From Stygiolobus caldivivus (GTDB taxonomy: Archaea > Thermoproteota > Thermoprotei_A > Sulfolobales > Sulfolobaceae), in assembly GCF_019704315.1 (NCBI RefSeq), contig NZ_AP024597.1:1674001-1738000 (forward strand): a DNA stretch of 64,000 nt. The letters are read 5' to 3'. Position numbers and translations under genes: made by a program. How positions within the stretch are numbered: the stretch's first letter is position 1; each line of letters starts with the position of its first letter. Positions 4,380 through 34,308 of the stretch are shown here, one piece after another. The notes below the pieces were generated by a model, which saw only the letters and a program-made list of their open reading frames with translations, did not search any database and was not told the origin of the DNA.

Positions 4380-4726
4380 TAAATAACTATATAGCCTATA
4401 TCTTACGATATAGACTCGTATAAATTATGCCCATTATTTTTATAAAAACTTGAATTATACAATAGTGTATAAACTCATTTAACCAGTTAACTCTTTATTT
4501 GTATAACTACGTACCTTATCTACTACGACCAAGAACTAAATGAGTTAGTGTGTTTAGGTATAGTTAAGGTTAATGTAAATAAAAAATTCTATTATTTTTA
4601 AATCACTGAATTATTAGCTTAATTTAATTTAAATAAGAAAACTTGACTTTACTAGTTTAAATTGTTTTTACATACCTAACAAAAGTTTATATCCTAATAA
4701 ACAACATATAATACATAGGGATAAGT
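4380..4726. other. AT-rich intergenic region with inverted repeats
   Basis: No gene seen. The region holds an imperfect dyad TATACAATAGTGTATA near 4455-4470 and an inverted pair CTCATTTA (about 4474) / TAAATGAG (about 4537). A TTTATATCC TATA-like box lies near 4685, some 35-40 nt before the gene at 4727. These could be regulatory, but AT-rich DNA yields such dyads by chance. Confidence 0.4.
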
Positions 4727-5014
4727 ATGAATGGAACTGTGAATAAGAGGAAGGAAATTGAAGACAAATTAGAGGTAGTATATGACGACGATGAACTAAC
4801 TGTTGTGATAGCTCCTGAAGAAGATGAGCTAAAGGAGGTAATACTCAATCTTTTAAAAGAAAAACCGATGGATGTAAGAGAAATACATAATGTCCTTACA
4901 AACCTAGCTAGCGATGAAAAAATAAGAAAAGCCCTTTATGAACTGGCTGAAGAAGGGACGGTAATTGAGGATAAGAAAAGCAAAAAATTCATGTTAGTGG
5001 GAGTAACAAACTAA
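4727..5014 (+). CDS. Small winged-helix-like protein
   Basis: 95 residues. After an acidic, probably unstructured first 35 residues, the segment ELKEVILNLLKEKPMDVREI, the helix DEKIRKALYELAEEGTVIED and a short final strand KKFMLVGVTN follow the helix-turn-helix-wing order of small archaeal DNA-binding proteins. The wing-like turn is EGTVIEDKKSKKF. It stands alone between two long AT-rich spacers. A transcription regulator is the simplest reading, but no family-defining motif is visible and the DNA target is unknown. Confidence 0.55.
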   Translation: MNGTVNKRKEIEDKLEVVYDDDELTVVIAPEEDELKEVILNLLKEKPMDVREIHNVLTNLASDEKIRKALYELAEEGTVIEDKKSKKFMLVGVTN

Positions 5015-5167
5015 ATGAACAAGTAAAATATTTTATAAATTATGACCTTATTTCTAGTTTTTAATTAAGAAGAGTATTAAGAATTTATTATTGGGCATGA
5101 AAATTTATCGACTAAATAAAGGGAATAAATAAATGTAATAGGAAAAAAGAAGGAAGAAGGGAAAAAC

Positions 5168-7946
<2,779 letters not shown>

Positions 7947-7969
7947 AATGTTTAATTCCTCTTAATAGA

Positions 7970-7983
7970 ATAAAAGCTTTTAT
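7970..7983. promoter_or_regulatory. Palindromic TATA-like element, possibly bidirectional
   Basis: ATAAAAGCTTTTAT is a perfect 14-bp palindrome. Its edges lie 24 nt from the ATG of the oxidoreductase (7946) and 29 nt from the ATG of the ABC gene (8012). Read on either strand it gives an A/T-rich TATA box at the right distance for a leaderless start. One element could therefore serve both promoters. Confidence 0.5.
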
Positions 7984-8011
7984 CTTCTCTCGTAAACCTA
8001 AGAAAAGTCAT

Positions 8012-8899
8012 ATGATAGTAATCAACAGCCTTACAAAGAGATACGGTAGGAAGGTCGCCCTAAATGAAATGGAACTCGAAATAAAAAAGGGTGAGTTCGT
8101 GTCTGTGTTAGGGCCCAATGGTGCGGGTAAGACCACCATGATCAGGTGTGTATTGGCACTGATGTACCCAGATAAAGGTGAGGTTGAGATCTTAGGAAAA
8201 GACCCCTTTAAGGATAAGTCCGTATTCAAAAACGTAGGTTATGTGCAAGAATTACCTAACCTACCCCCTTTTCTTACGGGGAGGCAAGTCCTGGTCTTAT
8301 CGGCTAAGATGAAAGGCGTAAAAAAAGATGAAGTTGACGAACTCCTTGAACTGGTAGGGATGACGGAATTTGCAAATAGGCAGATAGCGAAGTACAGTAA
8401 GGGGATGACACAGAGGATAGCTATAGCTGAAGCACTTTTGGGTGAGCCCCAAGTGCTGATAATGGACGAGCCTAATATAGGTGTAGACCCTATATTCTCC
8501 CTACATATTAGGGAAGTTTTTAACAAGCTTAAGAAAAACGGGACGAGTATTTTGATGACGTCTCACGAAATGGAAGACGTAAAGAAGCTTTCAGACAGAG
8601 TAGCCCTTGTGTATAAGGGTAGAAAAGTATTTGAAGGGACTGTAGAGGATCTGATAAAGAAGTTCCTTGGTATAGTAGTGGTAATTGAAGCCGACGGAAG
8701 GGCTGAAGAAGTACTAAGGGCATTAAACTTCGTAAAAAAGGTAGAAAAAGATGGTAAAGGTAAATACTATGTTACGTTAACGGAAGATAAGAGAGAGGAA
8801 TTGATTAAAGAACTTATATTTCAAGGGGTCAAAGTAAAATCCTTTTATCTAGACCTAGATATTGAAAGGGCGTATGAGAGGGCGATTAGTAATGCTTAA
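8012..8899 (+). CDS. ABC transporter ATP-binding protein
   Basis: 295 residues. All nucleotide-binding motifs are present: Walker A GPNGAGKTT (about 34-42), Q-loop in YVQELPNLPPF, a signature-like YSKGMTQRIA, Walker B VLIMDEP, and the switch histidine in TSHEMEDV. The 80-residue C-terminal extension is usual in ABC-2 type drug or polysaccharide exporters. The permease gene starts inside its last codons, so the two are translationally coupled. The substrate is not readable. Transcription probably starts at the palindromic element shared with the oxidoreductase. Confidence 0.92.
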   Translation: MIVINSLTKRYGRKVALNEMELEIKKGEFVSVLGPNGAGKTTMIRCVLALMYPDKGEVEILGKDPFKDKSVFKNVGYVQELPNLPPFLTGRQVLVLSAKMKGVKKDEVDELLELVGMTEFANRQIAKYSKGMTQRIAIAEALLGEPQVLIMDEPNIGVDPIFSLHIREVFNKLKKNGTSILMTSHEMEDVKKLSDRVALVYKGRKVFEGTVEDLIKKFLGIVVVIEADGRAEEVLRALNFVKKVEKDGKGKYYVTLTEDKREELIKELIFQGVKVKSFYLDLDIERAYERAISNA

Positions 8900-9725
8900 T
8901 GTGATGTTATACGAATTGAGGAGGGCTATAGCCCGTAAAAAAGTCATAGTCTTAATACTTGTCTCGCTATTTTTTGAGGTCGCCATCTATATGGCCCTTT
9001 ATTTAGTGCCATCGAAAGCAGTGAGGGTGATCCTGATCCCTCTTTACCCTTATATGTGGGCCGTAGGTGCCTTATTACCTCAGAGCCTCCTCCTACACTT
9101 CTTAGCTATTTCTATAGCTTCAGGTTCGATGTCAGAAGAGTACGAACAAGGTACTGTAGACTTTTTCCTCACTAAACCTGTCACAAGGCTCAGGTTTTAC
9201 GCAGAAAAGTGGTTAGGCTCATTCGCTCTGCTAGCTATGATATACGGTCTGATGATCGGGCTGTCATTGACCTTTTCTTTTTCACTTTTTGGAGCACAAG
9301 CGGACCTCTCACAGCTACCGGAGATTGTAGGCTTAGTACTTTTCTCCTCTCTAGTCTTTTTCAGTATAGCCTTCTCAATTGGTGAACTACTGAGGAGGAG
9401 TAGTCTTTCGTTTATAATCTCTAGTTCCTTACTTATAGGATCGATCCTTATATCTGACGTATTAGTATTTATAGGAAAATTTACGCATTCTCCTGAATAT
9501 ATATCTATAGCTTTATCATTACCCTCTTGGGGTGCTACCCAACTGCCTTTCTTACCGCTTGCACAATCTCAGTTCAAGTTATTTGTTGAAGTTCTGGACA
9601 TCTTCCCGCTTACTGTAGGGACTTTAGAAGAAGCAGTCCTTTCAGTCAGTATATATACGGCGGTGCCTGTTCTACTATCACTCCTTACATTTCTAAGGAG
9701 AGATATACCTAAAAGGGTCAGTTAG
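8892..9725 (+). CDS. ABC-2 type transporter permease
   Basis: I place the start at the ATG reading MLNVMLYELRRA, which overlaps the ATPase stop by 8 bp. A longer frame from 8862 would overlap it by 38 bp. The protein has six hydrophobic segments. The motif EYEQGTVDFFLTKPVTRLRFYAEKW between spans two and three is typical of ABC-2 permeases (EExGTlexLlstPvsr). It works in the membrane with the ATPase encoded just upstream. Lipid, drug or heme export are all possible. Confidence 0.88.
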   Translation: MLNVMLYELRRAIARKKVIVLILVSLFFEVAIYMALYLVPSKAVRVILIPLYPYMWAVGALLPQSLLLHFLAISIASGSMSEEYEQGTVDFFLTKPVTRLRFYAEKWLGSFALLAMIYGLMIGLSLTFSFSLFGAQADLSQLPEIVGLVLFSSLVFFSIAFSIGELLRRSSLSFIISSSLLIGSILISDVLVFIGKFTHSPEYISIALSLPSWGATQLPFLPLAQSQFKLFVEVLDIFPLTVGTLEEAVLSVSIYTAVPVLLSLLTFLRRDIPKRVS

Positions 9726-9783
9726 GCTAGGCCTTTCACATGAAAACGACCGTTAGACCTTACACGCCAGAATTAAAAAATTC

Positions 9784-9837
9784 CTTCAGCCGGGGATAAT
9801 TTTCAATCACCAATCTTCACATCGACCTTCATCATAA
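9784..9837 (-). ncRNA. Candidate C/D-box guide sRNA
   Basis: Read on the minus strand: C box ATGATGA (9835-9829), about 18 nt, C' box TGATTGA, a 13-nt spacer, then D box CTGA (9789-9786). The order and the overall length of about 50 nt fit archaeal C/D sRNAs that guide 2'-O-methylation. The D' box is degenerate. The C box overlaps the stop codon of the aldolase gene, an arrangement also seen for the candidate next to codA. Nothing was folded or searched, so the target is unknown. Confidence 0.5.
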
Positions 9838-10692
9838 GTTTAGTTCCTTTAATGTAGCATAGATCAGGGAATTCTGTTCCATCTTTTCCTCTAAGGGCCT
9901 CCTCACAGTCCCTACATATATCCCCCTATACTTTAGGGCTACTTTTACACCGGCGGGATAATCCCCTCCACTTATCGCCCTAGTGAGACTATTAACGGCT
10001 TTTTGTACTTCTAATGCTTCCTTGAGGTTTCCCTCTCGAAGGAGCTTATACAGTTTTAGAACTAACTCTGGGGCTACATTAGCAGTAGCCGAGACTACAC
10101 CATCGCTCCCAGACATGATCGCAAACGATATTAACTCATCATTACCTACTGCGACATGAAGGGGACTACTGCCCATCTGTTTTAATTCTAAATACCGTTG
10201 GAGTAAAATGACATTTTCTGTGGTAAGTTTTATACCTTCAATTATTCCCTCATCCACTAACCTTTTTACTATTTCAATATCAATGTATGCTTTACCATCA
10301 AAATTATAGAGATATAGTGGCAGACCGAACTTTGAAAGGGATTCAAAATAGTTTATTACCCCTTTTTCGGAAGGCTTATGGTAAATAGGCGGTAAAGACG
10401 CTATACCCTCGGCCCCTATATCTAGGGCTTGTTTAGCCAACTTCATTGCGTTAATTAACGAGTTTTCTGTTACATTAATTATTAACTTAAGGTTTGTGAT
10501 TAATCTCAAACTCTTTATAAATTGCTCTTTTTCTTCCATATTAAGCATGTTAAATTCTCCCGTAGTCCCTAAAGCAAAGATAGTCCCTATACCATTCCTT
10601 TTTAGAAAATCTAGATAGTTCTTTAGTGCATTTTCGTCCAGAGTCTCGTCTTGGGCAAACGGTGTTACAATTGCGGGTATAATTCCTTCCAC
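9832..10692 (-). CDS. KDG aldolase / dihydrodipicolinate synthase family lyase
   Basis: 286 residues of the class I aldolase family that makes a Schiff base with pyruvate. Visible motifs: GTTGEF (42-47), YLYNF (127-131) with the catalytic Tyr, and GIKLTTEN (153-160) with Schiff-base K155. In Sulfolobales this family provides 2-keto-3-deoxygluconate aldolase of the branched Entner-Doudoroff pathway, but bona fide KdgA sequences I know have GVKDT at the lysine and differ elsewhere. Dihydrodipicolinate or another 2-oxoacid aldol substrate is therefore possible. It is divergent from a DtxR-like regulator. No other sugar-pathway gene is near. Confidence 0.8.
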   Translation of the reverse strand: MEGIIPAIVTPFAQDETLDENALKNYLDFLKRNGIGTIFALGTTGEFNMLNMEEKEQFIKSLRLITNLKLIINVTENSLINAMKLAKQALDIGAEGIASLPPIYHKPSEKGVINYFESLSKFGLPLYLYNFDGKAYIDIEIVKRLVDEGIIEGIKLTTENVILLQRYLELKQMGSSPLHVAVGNDELISFAIMSGSDGVVSATANVAPELVLKLYKLLREGNLKEALEVQKAVNSLTRAISGGDYPAGVKVALKYRGIYVGTVRRPLEEKMEQNSLIYATLKELNL

Positions 10693-15216: not shown

Positions 15217-18704
<3,488 letters not shown>

Positions 18705-18706
18705 GG

Positions 18707-19753
18707 ATGTCTGCTGACCTACAGCTAGAGTCTCTGCTGTCAGATGATAAAATCTCTGCCTTAACAAAGGTAGTTGAAATTTTATCTACGGCTGAAAACA
18801 AATATGGGTTACTGTCTGCAATTCAAGGTTTTTTATCTGACGAAGAGATGCTAGGTAAGGTATTATCTTCTGTCATAAATGACCAGACACTAGGTCTTAT
18901 GACTAAGTGGAATAATTTAATGAAGCTTGCAGACAAGTTTGCCGATGAAACAACCATAGAAAACTTAAACGCTGTACTAGACCTAGTTGGCATACTAAAC
19001 AAGACTGGTATTCTAGACCCCATTAAAGGACTATTACAAGACGAAGAAACACTAGGAAAAATCCTATCTGCAATAGTAAATGACACCACACTGAACCTAA
19101 TGAGCAAATGGGGAAACCTAGTAAAGCTTGCAGACAAGTTTGCCGATGAAACAACCATAGAAAACTTAAACGCTGTACTAGACCTAGTTGGCATACTAAA
19201 CAAGACTGGTATTCTAGACCCCATTAAAGGACTATTACAAGACGAAGAAACACTAGGAAAAATCCTATCTGCAATAGTAAATGACACCACACTGAACCTA
19301 ATGAGCAAATGGGGAAACCTAGTAAAGCTAATGGAATTTGCCTCTAACGAAGAAACTATAACTACGCTGAATGACGTATTGGAACTTTATGGTAAACTAA
19401 AGAAACTCGGCTTAATAGACGTAGTTAAGGGAGTACTTGACGATGAGGAGACTATAGGAAAAGTTATGTCAGCTTTAGTGAATGACTTTACATTTAATTT
19501 ATTATCTAACTGGAATCTTATAGTAAGTGATCTAGCAAAAATAGACTTAACTAACTTTAAGTACTACACCTTACTGGTCAACGAGACTGGAGAAGCGTTA
19601 AAAGAAGAAAAAATCTTGAAAATTGACCATTGGTGGGACTTACTCAACATGTTCAAGGACCCTGAAGTAAGAGTTGGTTTAGGCGTAGTAGTGGCAATCC
19701 TAAAGCACATCGGAAGATATCATATGCAATATATAGGAGACGGTAAAAAGTAA
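18707..19753 (+). CDS. DUF1641-type helical-repeat protein, partner of SQR
   Basis: 348 residues made of four related helical units of about 67 residues with the shared pattern GLLxDEETLGKxLSAxVND. Units two and three are identical in protein and DNA. The C-terminal DPEVRVGLGVVVAILKHIG is the signature I associate with DUF1641 and also occurs in the protein at 31920. There are no Cys, signal peptide or membrane spans, though many units have amphipathic helices. Position 2 bp after sqr implies a structural or membrane-anchoring partner for the quinone reductase. That role is inferred. Confidence 0.8.
   Translation: MSADLQLESLLSDDKISALTKVVEILSTAENKYGLLSAIQGFLSDEEMLGKVLSSVINDQTLGLMTKWNNLMKLADKFADETTIENLNAVLDLVGILNKTGILDPIKGLLQDEETLGKILSAIVNDTTLNLMSKWGNLVKLADKFADETTIENLNAVLDLVGILNKTGILDPIKGLLQDEETLGKILSAIVNDTTLNLMSKWGNLVKLMEFASNEETITTLNDVLELYGKLKKLGLIDVVKGVLDDEETIGKVMSALVNDFTFNLLSNWNLIVSDLAKIDLTNFKYYTLLVNETGEALKEEKILKIDHWWDLLNMFKDPEVRVGLGVVVAILKHIGRYHMQYIGDGKK
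18923..19324 (+). repeat. Exact 201-bp tandem duplication inside the DUF1641 gene
   Basis: Two adjacent copies of 201 bp (67 codons), 18923-19123 and 19124-19324, are identical base for base by eye, each beginning AAGCTTGCAGACAAG. The repeat adds one complete helical unit and keeps the frame. The flanking units have the same pattern but are clearly diverged. Lack of any silent change points to a recent event or ongoing gene conversion. Confidence 0.9.
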
Positions 19754-29134: not shown

Positions 29135-29543
29135 ATTTTTCAGCACGATTGCCAAAGTCCATAGGAGCTTCGTAAGGGAACTGAATAAGAAGTTTGCAGA
29201 CAAGGGGATGAACTATTTGGACTTCCTTATCTTAAGAGCTGTGATGGAGAAAGAGTCTACCATGAGCGAATTAGCTAAGAGGTACTATGTAACTCAGGCT
29301 ACTATCACTGCGAGCGTAGACAGGTTAGAGCAGAAAGGTTACGTAGAAAGGAAAAGGGATCTTATAGATAGGAGGGTTGTTACGGTTAAAATAACAAAGA
29401 AAGGAGAGGAAACCTTTAAGGACTTACTCAAGGATTACTCTTCATTAGCAGATGAAGTAATTAAGAATATAAAAGTGGACGATACAATCGAAATTTTACA
29501 AAAAATATTAAATAAACTAGACATACTTAGTTCTAAGAGTTAG
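29112..29543 (+). CDS. MarR-family transcription regulator
   Basis: 143 residues. A winged helix with [20 protein letters not shown] (recognition helix), then [20 protein letters not shown], the MarR wing DxRxxxV, flanked by long helices for dimerisation. The GTG start at 29112 is set by the strong upstream GGAGGTG, which lies inside the transporter gene. The tight overlap suggests that it represses or senses substrates of that efflux pump. The rhodanese gene on the other strand overlaps its last 11 bases. Confidence 0.9.
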
Positions 29544-29940
29544 TTAGTTCTTCTAACCATTTTTGCCATTTAATCCCGTTCTCGTCCATTCCTGTCTCTA
29601 CTTCATACCCCATCCCCATCCAGCCGGCCATTCCGCCTATTACGTAGTATACTTTTCTACCTTTCCAAAGCTCCGGCATACCGTAAGTAGCATACCTAGC
29701 TCTGTTACCGTGCTCGCAGAATACGGCTATCTCTGTATGAGGAATTTTATGGATCAGCACGTCTAAATAGTCCATAGGCACTAATAGTGCTCCGGGTATA
29801 TGATGATCCTCGTATTCCATTGGAGTCCTTATGTCAAGGACGAGTACGTTGTTCTTCTTCCATAATTTCCTTGCTACAGACGGGAACACATCAATTATAT
29901 GAGGATAATATGGAGATGAATACTCTTCGTTTACTTTCAT
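29533..29940 (-). CDS. Rhodanese-like sulfurtransferase
   Basis: 135 residues with one rhodanese domain: VLDIRTPMEYEDHHIPGA and the active-site loop CEHGNRAR with C75, then GGMAGWMGMGYEVE. The loop has the six-residue size of sulfurtransferases, not the seven of phosphatases. It should carry a persulfide in the cytoplasm. Position next to the tusA-sqr-dsrE operon, divergent from it across a 193-bp AT-rich spacer, makes a role in the same sulfur-relay system plausible. Confidence 0.9.
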   Translation of the reverse strand: MKVNEEYSSPYYPHIIDVFPSVARKLWKKNNVLVLDIRTPMEYEDHHIPGALLVPMDYLDVLIHKIPHTEIAVFCEHGNRARYATYGMPELWKGRKVYYVIGGMAGWMGMGYEVETGMDENGIKWQKWLEELTNS

Positions 29941-30133: not shown

Positions 30134-30367
30134 ATGTCTTCCTATAAAATCCAAAAAAGTCTTGATTTAACCGGGACTTCATGTGCAGGTCCAATAGGCG
30201 AACTATCTGGTGTTATGGACGAAATAGGAGCTGGAGAAGCTATTGAAGTAATTCTAGGAGATGAAGCTACAAAAAAAGACATTGTAGCTTGGGCTACCAA
30301 AAAAGGGTATAAAGTACTAAGTGAAACAAAAGACGGTAGTAAATTCAAACTAGTTATACAGAAGTGA
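30134..30367 (+). CDS. tusA: TusA-family sulfur carrier
   Basis: 77 residues. It opens with a beta-strand LDLTGTSCAGPIGELSGVMDE, where C17 in CAGP is the sulfur-binding Cys (usual form CPxP). The rest, GEAIEVILGDEATKKDIVAW and GSKFKLVIQK, follows the IF3-like fold of TusA. It accepts and hands on persulfide or thiosulfonate groups between sulfur enzymes in the cytoplasm. A GGGAGGGG ribosome-binding site precedes the ATG, and TATATAT lies further upstream. It leads a four-gene operon with 6-7 bp spacings. Confidence 0.9.
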   Translation: MSSYKIQKSLDLTGTSCAGPIGELSGVMDEIGAGEAIEVILGDEATKKDIVAWATKKGYKVLSETKDGSKFKLVIQK

Positions 30368-30373
30368 TACGCC

Positions 30374-31528
30374 ATGAAGAGGATTATTATAGCCGGTGGA
30401 GGAATAGCTGGTACAATAGTAGCAAATAGGCTAGCAAGGGCTTTATCTCATGAAATTCATAAGGAAGAACTAGAAATTGTAGTCTTAGATAAAAGCGACA
30501 GACATGTGTATCAGCCTGGACAGCTATTTGTAGGAATGGGTCTAGTTGAACCAACGGACATTGTAAAGAATGAAAGGGAACTACTAGATGAAAGGGTAAA
30601 GTTTGTCCACGGAGAAAAAGGTGAGATAACAAAGATTGATCCGCCAAATAATACAGTAGTCACTGCTGACGGAGTTAAACACACTTACGATTATCTGGTG
30701 ATAGCGACCGGGTCGCATCTAAGTTGGGATGAAATACCGGGCTTAAAAGAAGCTGAATTCACTGCATGGAGTTATGAAGATGCACTAAAGATGAGAGAAG
30801 CCGTACAGCAGTTCCAAGGAGGCACAGTAGTCATTAACGTGGCTAGGTTACCTCACAAATGTCCAGTAGGGCCTTTAGAAATGACTTTAATGTTCGAGGA
30901 CTGGACTAGGAGGATGGGTATAAGAGACAAGACCAGGATAATTTATACTTATCCGATCCAAGGAGTGTTTGGCATCAAGTCCACCAACGAGTTAATGCTG
31001 AAGATATTCAAAGAGAGGGGAATTGAAGTCGTATCGCCGTTTACAGTTACAAAAGTAGACCCGAAGGAAAAAGTGATAGAGTCGCAAGAAGGAGAAAAAA
31101 TAAAGTTCGACCTCCTATTAGGTGTACCACCTCACATGGGTGCTAAGGTCATAGGAGATTCAGGGATTGGTGATAAGAGGAATTGGGTTCCTACCGACAA
31201 GTTTACATTACAAATGAAAGGACATTCTAACGTATATGTGATCGGCGATACGACTGATATACCAATATCTAAAGCAGGCTCTACTGCAGACTTCGAATCA
31301 TATGTAGTAACTTCAAATATAGTAAATGACATAAGGGGACAAAAACAGAAGAAAATGTATGACGGGTCAGTGTTCTGTTATATAGCTACCGGACTGGATC
31401 AAGCTACATACATTAGGTTTAACTATAATAACCCGCCCATACCACCTCCACCATCTTATGTACACTGGTGGGGCAAGATATTATACAACAAACTATACTG
31501 GACAGTAACGGCTAAGGCTATAGTGTGA
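30374..31528 (+). CDS. SQR-like flavoprotein (sulfide:quinone reductase family)
   Basis: 384 residues. N-terminal [18 protein letters not shown] and the late [17 protein letters not shown] bind FAD; VIATGSH is also typical. Redox cysteines are C163 in HKCPVGP and C335 in VFCYIATG, close to the pair in other SQR types, while the third Cys (129 in the sqr at 17475) is missing. The tail with [18 protein letters not shown] could be a membrane-contact helix. It is a different SQR class from the first gene. It is flanked by TusA and DsrE genes, so its sulfur product may go to these carriers. Confidence 0.85.
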
Positions 31529-31535
31529 GTCTAAA

Positions 31536-31913
31536 ATGGCAAAAGTAGGAATAGTCCTCGGAAGTAATGAACTTTCTAAAGTCCTTTTTGCAGGGATGTG
31601 GAGTGTAATTTCAACAAGTATGGGAGATGAAGTAGTAATTTTTGCTACAATGGATGCTGTAAAGGCTTTTACCAAAGAAAATGCCGATATGAAGGTAACC
31701 GATGAGACTTCGAAGAAAGCAGCTAACGAGGACGTCATGGGGTTTTATAAGAAAGCGAAGAAAAGTGGAAGGCTAAAGGTATATGCTTGTTCTTATGCGA
31801 GTAAACTATTCGGGCTTGAGAAAGACAATTATAATGACGTTATAGATGACATAGTAGGTATAACGAGCTTCCAAATGGAGGTAGAAGGAGGACAGATAAT
31901 ATCAATATGGTGA
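31536..31913 (+). CDS. DsrE-family sulfur-transfer protein
   Basis: 125 residues with the DsrE/DsrF-like alpha/beta fold: KVGIVLGSNELSKVLFAG at the start, EVVIFATMDAVKAF, and KVYACSYASKLFGL, where the Cys is the conserved sulfur-binding residue. It ends in a beta-strand. It works with TusA in cytoplasmic sulfur relay in sulfur-oxidising archaea. It sits between the SQR-like gene and the second DUF1641 gene in one operon. A related protein is encoded at 53510. Confidence 0.87.
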   Translation: MAKVGIVLGSNELSKVLFAGMWSVISTSMGDEVVIFATMDAVKAFTKENADMKVTDETSKKAANEDVMGFYKKAKKSGRLKVYACSYASKLFGLEKDNYNDVIDDIVGITSFQMEVEGGQIISIW

Positions 31914-31919
31914 GATTGA

Positions 31920-32816
31920 GTGCAGGATGTAAACTTTGAAAAAGTTATGAGTAAAATAGACGAGAAAAAGGTAGATGAGATAGCTGAATTAATAGACCAT
32001 TTACCAACACTTAACGAGACACTAAAAGTGGTTTCACAACTTAAGGAGAGTGGGGCACTGGATACTCTTGTTAATTTATCATACTCAGCTAAGATGCTTA
32101 GAGATATGCTAAATGATGACGCATTATCTAATGTAGCTACAATGTTATCAGGTCTCCTAGAGTTATCCGAGACGGTTGGAGAGAACTATAATAAATTCCA
32201 AGAACTAATGGAGAATGTTGATGTACTGGCAGACTTGACTAGAAGACTAAAAGAGCTGAAAGAAAGCGGAGCACTTGACGTAGGTCTAAACAGCCTATAC
32301 ACGTTAAAGACACTTAAAGATATGTTAAACGATGAAGCACTAGCAAATCTTGGAAACACTATGTCAGCTCTGCTAGAATTTTCTAACGTGTTCTCAGAGA
32401 ACTATAAGGGAATTATGAACACATTAAAGAACTGGGACGTGATTGACAAGCTAATGGTAAAGTTAAAGGAACTAGACCACTCAGGAGCACTTGACGTAGG
32501 TCTAAACAGCCTATATGCATTGAAAACATTTAAGGACATGTTAAATGATGAGGCACTGGGAAATATAGCGGCTACTCTATCTTTAACACTTGATTTCCTT
32601 CCTAAAGGTCTGGAATTCCTAGAACATGCAATGGACCCTGTATTCTACAATATGGTAACTTCACTTACTTCACCCGAAGCTAAGAAAATGCTTTCTAACC
32701 CACCTAAAATTACACTCGGAGGACTTATAGCGTCGATGAGAGATGAAGACGTCCAGAGAGGGCTAGGGATCTTTATAACTATGCTCAAGATCTTGGGAAA
32801 GAGCTATAAAGCTTGA
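31920..32816 (+). CDS. Second DUF1641-type helical-repeat protein
   Basis: 298 residues from a GTG start. Three repeats share the pattern SGALDxxxNSLYxLKTxKDMLNDEAL, and the C-terminal RDEDVQRGLGIFITMLKILG is the same signature as in the protein at 18707. No Cys and no clear membrane span. The protein ends the tusA-SQR-dsrE operon, so both SQR-type genes in the window have a DUF1641 partner downstream. The repeats are less similar to each other at the DNA level than those of the first copy. Function is inferred to be a partner or anchor for the flavoprotein. Confidence 0.8.
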   Translation: MQDVNFEKVMSKIDEKKVDEIAELIDHLPTLNETLKVVSQLKESGALDTLVNLSYSAKMLRDMLNDDALSNVATMLSGLLELSETVGENYNKFQELMENVDVLADLTRRLKELKESGALDVGLNSLYTLKTLKDMLNDEALANLGNTMSALLEFSNVFSENYKGIMNTLKNWDVIDKLMVKLKELDHSGALDVGLNSLYALKTFKDMLNDEALGNIAATLSLTLDFLPKGLEFLEHAMDPVFYNMVTSLTSPEAKKMLSNPPKITLGGLIASMRDEDVQRGLGIFITMLKILGKSYKA

Positions 32817-32907: not shown

Positions 32908-34308
32908 GTGATTAACAAAATGGACATTTTTGTTAAGTTTAGAGAAAACTTAGAAATTTACAAAAGTATGGGGTTAAACCCTTTATCACTCGCCACAGGT
33001 TGTGCAGTAAAAGTCGACCTAATAGAGACTGTTTATCCAGCACTCGAGAAACTTAGGAAAGAGCTGGAGAAAAGAAACATTTACATACTGCCTAGGGAAG
33101 ACGCTGACATATTCGTTTCTACGGAAAAGATTATACACAAAAGGCTGATAAACGGTGGTGAATTTGACGCAGATAGGGCAATTAGCCTTATTCAAGTGAA
33201 CCAGGAAACCGCTGGGAACCCACAAGCTTTTGCCGAATTTTTATTCAGGGCGTATACTTCAGTAAAGACAAGTAGGAAACTCACAATCGGAAAAGGTCAC
33301 TCAATCGTAACTACTAAGAAAGACGGAGAGATCGCACTCTTAGATTTGTTCAGGCTTGAAGGGAGGAGAGAAAGGTCGTACACTGTAGCTAACAATGACA
33401 CAATACAGATAGTCGACCCTTTAGATAACCCGGGGTCTCAGACTCAAGTTGATGTGGCTATATCAAACTCTTTAAATGACTTATTTACGAAGGGTGTATT
33501 CCAAGGCTTAACAGTAATCCCAGTAGCTGATGCACCTAATGATGAATTAAAAAGGAGGCTACTAGGTAATTATGAGAACTTTACACGAAAGTATAATATG
33601 GAGTTAAAAGACGATATCCAACCGTCTACGAAAACCCTTATGATGGGGGCTACAGTCATAGGTAAGAGTGACCACGAATTACCCACATTTTACGATAAAG
33701 TAGACGAAGACACGGTAATTGTGACCACGAGGTATTTTGGTGAGTTGACCCCTATCAACGTCCACTTATGGGTATTAGCTGTCCCAGAGCTCATTGAACT
33801 TATGGAAGCGAAAGGAATATCCTTCTCTAAATTAGAAGAAACTAAGACTAAAGCATTGAGGGTAATGTCAACACCTAATATCCATGTAGCTAAGGTGATC
33901 TATAACCACCTACCTGAGTTCGGTAAGGACTTCTCTAGGGAAGAACACGTAGCAATGACTACTGATGTCACGGGACCGGGGATATTTGTCATAAAGGAGT
34001 TTGCAGAAAAGGCTGGGGTAAATGTTGAGCTATCGTCCGTCCCAGTGATAGACCGTGACATCTGTGAATTCGCTACTGAGAACTTCATTATTCCTAACTC
34101 TACTATCGGGACTAATGGGGCAATTGTGATGTTTGTGAACAAGAGGTTAGCCGACGACTTAGTTGAGGAGTTAGAAAGAGCTGGAGAAAAGCCGGAGGTG
34201 ATAGGAAAAGTGGTGGGGAAAGGTAACGGGGCAGTAATAGTCCCCCCTTATGTTACAAAGCTTATAAGGAGGGATAACGTGTTAAGACAGTTTAAGATAA
34301 AGGAATGA
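32908..34308 (+). CDS. SelD-related protein, putative sulfur metabolism
   Basis: 466 residues. [11 protein letters not shown] holds C32 at the position of the selenophosphate synthetase active-site motif GCxCK, and [38 protein letters not shown] and [13 protein letters not shown] match ATP-binding and AIR-synthase-like segments of SelD. It is longer than SelD (about 350). Sulfolobales do not use selenocysteine, so a sulfur analogue reaction has been suggested for this family. The start is GTG with an ATG four codons on. It is 90 bp after the second sulfur operon. Confidence 0.75.

Follow-up and report, generated by a model that had tools for sequence, protein, structure and literature searches.

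A DUF1641 protein encoded with an SQR-type flavoprotein, TusA and DsrE in Sulfolobaceae is probably a quinone- or membrane-coupling partner

The operon and its products

The window analyzed here is a stretch of 64,000 nucleotides (positions 1674001-1738000) on a 2.96-Mb archaeal chromosome. Four open reading frames on its forward strand, at positions 30134-32816, encode in order a TusA-like sulfur carrier, a flavoprotein of the sulfide:quinone oxidoreductase (SQR) type, a DsrE-like protein and a DUF1641 protein, and are separated by only 6, 7, and 6 nt. A sequence-only reading had described this locus as an SQR set between two sulfur carriers, TusA upstream and DsrE downstream, and followed by DUF1641. 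All four reading frames lie where that reading had placed them, and Pfam confirmed the family of each. Because the same operon is found again across Sulfolobaceae genera, the arrangement is not a matter of chance. The following gene (32908-34308, + strand) encodes a SelD-related protein (NCBIfam NF038049, E 7.7e-211); it starts 91 nt past the DUF1641 gene and is outside the tight four-gene unit, and in some relatives it adjoins the operon or lies a few genes off. This protein keeps a GCAVK motif, which we take to resemble the catalytic Cys/Lys region of SelD, and SQR-like flavoproteins fused to SelD make up the NCBIfam family TIGR03169. Upstream of the operon is a divergent rhodanese-domain gene (29533-29940), and several other Sulfolobaceae likewise have a rhodanese gene near the operon.

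SQRs are textbook single-subunit enzymes and usually reach quinone and the membrane through C-terminal helices of their own. The flavoprotein of the operon (30374-31528, + strand, 384 aa) has the FAD domains of this family (Pfam Pyr_redox_2, E 5.5e-18, and FCSD_central, E 3.9e-8) together with the catalytic cysteine pair. It contains exactly two cysteines, Cys163 and Cys335, which match the redox cysteines kept in 67/67 and 61/67 aligned SQR-like proteins and also align with those of human SQR (HMMER). The position of Cys129 in the Acidianus ambivalens enzyme is occupied by Trp, so the description of an SQR with two cysteines and the third missing was correct. Among solved proteins the closest were those of human SQR (E 1e-42 to 3e-42). 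The best NCBIfam model was that of the type III SQRs (NF049943), whose score of 368 bits fell under the cut-off of 525, a value set for a selenoprotein subtype; the flavoprotein is therefore named type II/III-like only. A second SQR in the window (17475-18704, + strand) is type V-like, with Cys129, Cys178, and Cys350 in A. ambivalens numbering, and is followed after 2 nt by a DUF1641 gene of its own (18707-19753, + strand, 348 aa). The two SQRs had been called unrelated types. They are instead divergent homologues within one flavoprotein superfamily, about 24% identical. A gene for a CoxL/aldehyde-dehydrogenase-like large subunit lies directly upstream of this second pair; the three genes span 15217-19753.

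TusA (30134-30367, + strand, 77 aa; Pfam TusA, E 1.6e-17) combines the fold profile of its family with the reactive cysteine, its only one, in the motif SCAGP. This residue is retained in 15/15 aligned TusA proteins, and the SQR-linked copies of Sulfolobaceae carry CAGP, with Ala in place of the first Pro of the CPxP motif that most TusA proteins have. DsrE (31536-31913, + strand, 125 aa; Pfam DsrE, E 2e-8) has its active-site cysteine in the motif YACS, and this cysteine is retained in all aligned DsrE proteins. By its profile, its active-site cysteine and its position downstream of an SQR it belongs to the DsrE4 group, which the available part of the original description defines by this location (PMC4175335).

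The last gene (31920-32816, + strand) encodes a protein of 298 aa with three copies of a 72-residue helical repeat (216 nt each) ahead of the C-terminal DUF1641 motif. It matches the C-terminal profile PF07849 at 53.3 bits against a cut-off of 21 (E 2.4e-14), and the assignment of both DUF1641 proteins of the window to this family was borne out. The protein possesses no cysteine and no transmembrane segment (maximum 19-residue hydropathy, 1.13). The DUF1641 protein paired with the type V-like SQR also lacks cysteine, as do 23 of the 24 SQR-paired DUF1641 proteins of at least 180 aa. A model of the operon protein based on 11 sequences shows only helices but has low confidence and is too poor to use (pLDDT 38), and a short DUF1641 relative is modeled as all helical at pLDDT 89. 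A Foldseek comparison of the latter model with the PDB gave no match at E<=0.001.

Association of DUF1641 with SQRs and other dehydrogenases

The pairing of two SQRs with the same family had suggested a functional link, which would fail if DUF1641 proteins elsewhere kept no company with flavoprotein or sulfur genes. A PF07849 search of 147 genomes of the order returned at least 150 matches; among those listed, 89 are preceded on their own strand, at a distance of up to 2.5 kb, by a listed SQR-like gene. By rough arithmetic, if a 2-Mb genome has some two listed SQRs, well under one such neighbor would be expected by chance. Neighborhoods were then read at 80 loci of the order and at 40 of other Thermoproteota, which together contain 128 DUF1641 genes. 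An SQR-like gene lies directly upstream or one gene away in 90 of these. A further 10 stand behind a ForC-type formate dehydrogenase, 13 are within sHdr/lipoamide dehydrogenase regions, and one adjoins a [NiFe] hydrogenase, bringing the DUF1641 genes with dehydrogenase-system neighbors to 114/128. The remaining 14 (about 10%), some of them at contig ends, have no recognized partner. At two loci (L109 and L113), short DUF1641 genes belong to a conserved cluster in which no dehydrogenase is obvious. A genome scan with a single DUF1641 sequence detected four archaeal loci only.

Since these loci were picked for having DUF1641, a fair test must start from the SQR side. A DUF1641 gene recognized at the Pfam level lies downstream in 19 of 21 Sulfolobaceae orthologues of the operon SQR, compared with none of the 22 members of a paralogous SQR-like group. 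That the two exceptions lack a partner was considered and rejected. Both have one recognized by a broader DUF1641 profile, and in one of them the next gene is a sub-threshold DUF1641 (18 bits vs 21). For three more SQRs elsewhere that appeared unpaired, the product of the next gene resembles DUF1641 at its C-terminus, as judged by eye. In 80 of 94 pairs the two genes either overlap or have fewer than 30 nt between them. Overall, the link between DUF1641 and SQR flavoproteins withstood the refuting check and is strongly supported, and the association is wider than first claimed, because it extends to formate dehydrogenase, sHdr, and hydrogenase. The open-access literature searched, as far as its texts were available, contained no report of a functional link of DUF1641 to SQR.

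The partners also vary together. Pairwise distances among SQRs and among DUF1641 proteins are correlated (rho 0.53, against 0.13 for the best of 300 permutations). Among Sulfolobaceae, DUF1641 proteins are 44 and 47% identical within the two SQR classes and 22% between them, and the two copies of one genome are only 16-25% identical. Outside Sulfolobaceae, short DUF1641 proteins have a conserved cysteine pair that accompanies an extra cysteine pair in the SQR, with 80 of 94 pairs concordant (examples are L055, L058, L062, and L066). At six loci with two tandem SQR-DUF1641 pairs, the cysteine-rich SQR is beside the cysteine-rich DUF1641 in all six, and neither member of the other pair has extra cysteines. 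Shared ancestry accounts for part of the correlation but not for matched pairs inside one locus. The paired extra cysteines could form a disulfide, a metal site, or a sulfur path at an interface.

Two further properties of the paired SQRs were considered. The idea that they always lack the last C-terminal membrane helix was rejected because their tails (12-38 residues, median 15.5) overlap in length with those of unpaired SQRs; long tails of 30-36 residues occur in three of four unpaired Sulfolobaceae SQRs, vs 16 residues in the operon protein. In addition, the second catalytic cysteine is lost from 7 of 94 DUF1641-paired SQR-like proteins (L050, L051, L052, L053, L071, L078, and L080), all outside the family of the operon SQR. 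These seven are probably not sulfide oxidases.

A search of the source genome found four DUF1641 genes. Besides the two in the window, one is located in an sHdr/lipoate region and one in a formate dehydrogenase-FdhD cluster. The former (locus L006, 407500-419500; 4378-5919 within it) encodes a highly repetitive protein of 513 aa, is conserved there across Sulfolobaceae, and has genes for HdrC, TusA, DsrE, lipoamide dehydrogenase, a radical SAM protein, and lipoate ligase as neighbors. A DUF1641 protein of this type may link sHdr or its lipoamide dehydrogenase to quinone. The latter gene (locus L005, 1507500-1518500; cluster at 4580-8575) lies between FdhD and a large ForC-like formate dehydrogenase of Fer2/Fer4/molybdopterin architecture, which possesses a Cys-Gln motif at the active site like the ForC proteins of Bacillus subtilis described in the accessible sections of PMC8808070. 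This cluster is an archaeal version of B. subtilis ForCE. In another Sulfolobaceae genome, a DUF1641 gene is divergent from the genes for the small and large subunits of a [NiFe] hydrogenase (L044, 1710-5126), an arrangement that recalls HucM.

Of the 90 SQR-DUF1641 pairs, 28 have a gene for TusA or DsrE beside them, across several families and with varying orders among the Thermoproteota loci, and the other 62 have none nearby. The SQR-DUF1641 pair is therefore the core of the arrangement, to which the carriers are an optional addition. The operon of one 2,225,959-bp genome, presumably that of Sulfolobus acidocaldarius DSM 639, lies (L141, 3171-5882) tail-to-tail with an sHdr cluster (6055-9863) that includes HdrC-like, TusA, DsrE, and LPD genes. 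This proximity fits a delivery of sulfane sulfur to sHdr. Surveys give S. acidocaldarius as a reference member of the Sulfolobales without Sqr, and one of the two used an A. ambivalens query with identity above 50% (PMC11143483; PMC8551704). These surveys would miss the SQR of this operon. The locus indicates that this genetic model species carries a different SQR in an operon beside its sHdr genes.

The proposed role of DUF1641

Searched against every chain in the PDB, a profile of 22 short archaeal DUF1641 proteins had matches at E<=0.001 to just four distinct sequences. The match to ForE1 was the best (E 2e-12), and those to HucM (E 4e-5) and YjlC (E 4e-4) were weak. The fourth, named an 'NDH-2 membrane coupling protein' (E 8e-4), shares its PDB entries with the NDH-2 YjlD. 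A profile built from the group of the operon protein itself also found ForE1, at E 1e-5. Each of the four solved relatives couples its partner dehydrogenase to quinone or the membrane. ForE1, as far as the accessible text of the study goes, is needed for formate:menadione activity and for nearly all of the bound menaquinone-7 (PMC8808070), and HucM forms a hydrophobic stalk at the membrane through which menaquinone reaches the hydrogenase (PMC10017518). Moreover, a hydrogenase operon of Parageobacillus includes a DUF1641 gene (PMC12976888, excerpts), and a DUF1641 protein of Ignicoccus rises together with the FAD oxidoreductase of the next gene number (PMC3149612, excerpts). What is common to these contexts is a dehydrogenase that needs quinone, and not sulfur. 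On the strength of sequence comparisons, DUF1641 is therefore probably a quinone- or membrane-coupling partner of the SQR rather than part of a sulfur relay. The structure models and the Foldseek comparison lend this reading no further weight.

The operon as a whole is likely to encode a sulfide (or sulfane sulfur):quinone oxidoreductase module, with DUF1641 as the quinone-coupling subunit and TusA and DsrE as acceptors. The flavoprotein would oxidize sulfide at its FAD and the Cys163/Cys335 pair, as the conserved residues suggest. DUF1641 would be a dedicated partner, cofactor-free and all-helical, by which the flavoprotein is tethered to the membrane and supplied with quinone, in the Sulfolobales with caldariellaquinone. 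Such a role has been shown for ForE with formate dehydrogenase and for HucM with hydrogenase, and the PDB name of the YjlC-type protein that accompanies the NDH-2 YjlD points to it as well. TusA and DsrE would take up the sulfane sulfur and pass it to the sHdr pathway. In this scheme the data show the gene content, the conservation of the cysteines and of the pairing, the covariation between specific partners, and the relation in sequence to quinone-coupling subunits; we infer complex formation, quinone delivery, the direction of the reaction, and the hand-over of sulfur. Human SQR passes its sulfane sulfur to an acceptor, and it is plausible that TusA and DsrE are such acceptors and that the SQR transfers sulfur directly to one or the other instead of releasing polysulfide, as the sequence-only reading had suggested.

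The sequence-only reading had gone further and regarded all four genes as a sulfur-relay operon. For TusA, the SQR and DsrE this remains plausible, with reactive cysteines kept in all three and carriers recurring beside SQR-DUF1641 pairs in several families. A chain in which DUF1641 itself helps to pass persulfide from the flavoprotein to TusA or DsrE would also agree with the cysteine pair of short DUF1641 proteins outside Sulfolobaceae, which mostly co-occurs with the extra pair of the SQR. However, it is very unlikely given that both DUF1641 proteins of the window and nearly all the longer SQR-paired ones have no cysteine, that most SQR-DUF1641 pairs have no carrier nearby, that the family also occurs with ForC and hydrogenase, which carry no sulfur, and that its solved relatives are coupling subunits.

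Two other explanations concern the quinone and the donor. Because SQRs have C-terminal helices of their own and the Caldivirga type III SQR has been purified, DUF1641 may not be strictly needed. The Caldivirga enzyme was purified as a quinone-reducing one and is active in isolation, according to the available portions of the papers that cite this work (PMC11143483; PMC9666304). DUF1641 could then be only a scaffold or an assembly and stability factor for soluble dehydrogenases, with the SQR reducing quinone alone. HucM does organize the Huc oligomer as well (PMC10017518), and ForC1 without ForE1 loses most of its activity, that with an artificial acceptor included (PMC8808070, excerpts). Nevertheless, in the characterized relatives, ForE and HucM, the tie is to quinone itself, by bound menaquinone in one case and a hydrophobic tube in the other, which makes a purely structural role rather unlikely. 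It is also unlikely that the flavoprotein uses another donor or works backwards, taking electrons from quinol to reduce sulfur or polysulfide. The loss of the second catalytic cysteine from some DUF1641-paired SQR-like proteins would suit such a reaction, as would the placement of the strict anaerobe Stygiolobus azoricus in the same order (PMC11143483). Still, the operon SQR keeps both catalytic cysteines and has genuine SQRs as its closest solved enzymes, and aerobic sulfur oxidizers such as Metallosphaera cuprina have this operon as well (PMC4175335, excerpts).

The coupling role preferred here offers a testable function for a family of unknown function that is widespread in archaea, and suggests that SQRs often have a partner. 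It would link the oxidation of sulfide, formate, and hydrogen in the Sulfolobales, and that by sHdr, through one kind of quinone-coupling protein, which bears on the unsettled destination of the sHdr electrons. As a more tentative extension, on balance doubtful, many archaeal SQRs might be two-subunit enzymes with DUF1641 as a quinone-delivery stalk, and the same device might, within one archaeal family, couple formate dehydrogenase, [NiFe] hydrogenase, and the sHdr complex of sulfur oxidation to quinone. If so, the electrons of sHdr would also reach the quinone pool.

Comparison with known systems

One locus (L018) of a genome that we take to be that of M. cuprina has the same four genes as the operon. 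The tusA-sqr-dsrE order is already published, since the 2014 paper on this organism reports tusA-sqr-dsrE4 (Mcup_1722-1724) in the order of the window; the string DUF is absent from its available text, which discusses no DUF1641 gene (PMC4175335). Sulfur-responsive genes of sulfur oxidizers have been named sqr-alt, sirA, dsrE, and hypE (PMC11323534), and these may be the operon described here. The SQR shares the catalytic cysteine pair and the FAD fold with the A. ambivalens type V, Caldivirga type III, and human type II enzymes but has no cysteine where the A. ambivalens enzyme has Cys129. The published descriptions of these enzymes, in the parts available, include no dedicated DUF1641 partner.

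With ForE, HucM, and YjlC, the operon DUF1641 has in common a detectable sequence relation and a quinone-linked dehydrogenase as neighbor. HucM of the Huc [NiFe] hydrogenase (7uus), matched in its C-terminal, DUF1641-like part, is a helical partner that extends to the membrane and transports quinone, as is proposed for the operon protein. Its match to the archaeal profile is weak, its partner is a hydrogenase, and the tetrameric stalk is described for HucM. ForCE of B. subtilis (ForE1/ForE2) belongs to the same Pfam family, with the small DUF1641 gene directly adjoining the dehydrogenase gene. In contrast to ForCE, the partner in the window is an FAD/SQR protein and not a molybdoenzyme, and its DUF1641 is longer than ForE, with the three 72-aa repeats. 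In the case of YjlC with the NDH-2 YjlD (9snk, 9pxk), the flavoprotein oxidizes NADH and has no sulfur carriers, and the YjlC-type matches are at E 4e-4 to 8e-4. Nonetheless, YjlC is a helical partner of a flavoprotein with two dinucleotide-binding domains that is itself a distant relative of SQR, and this pair is the nearest analogue of SQR and DUF1641.
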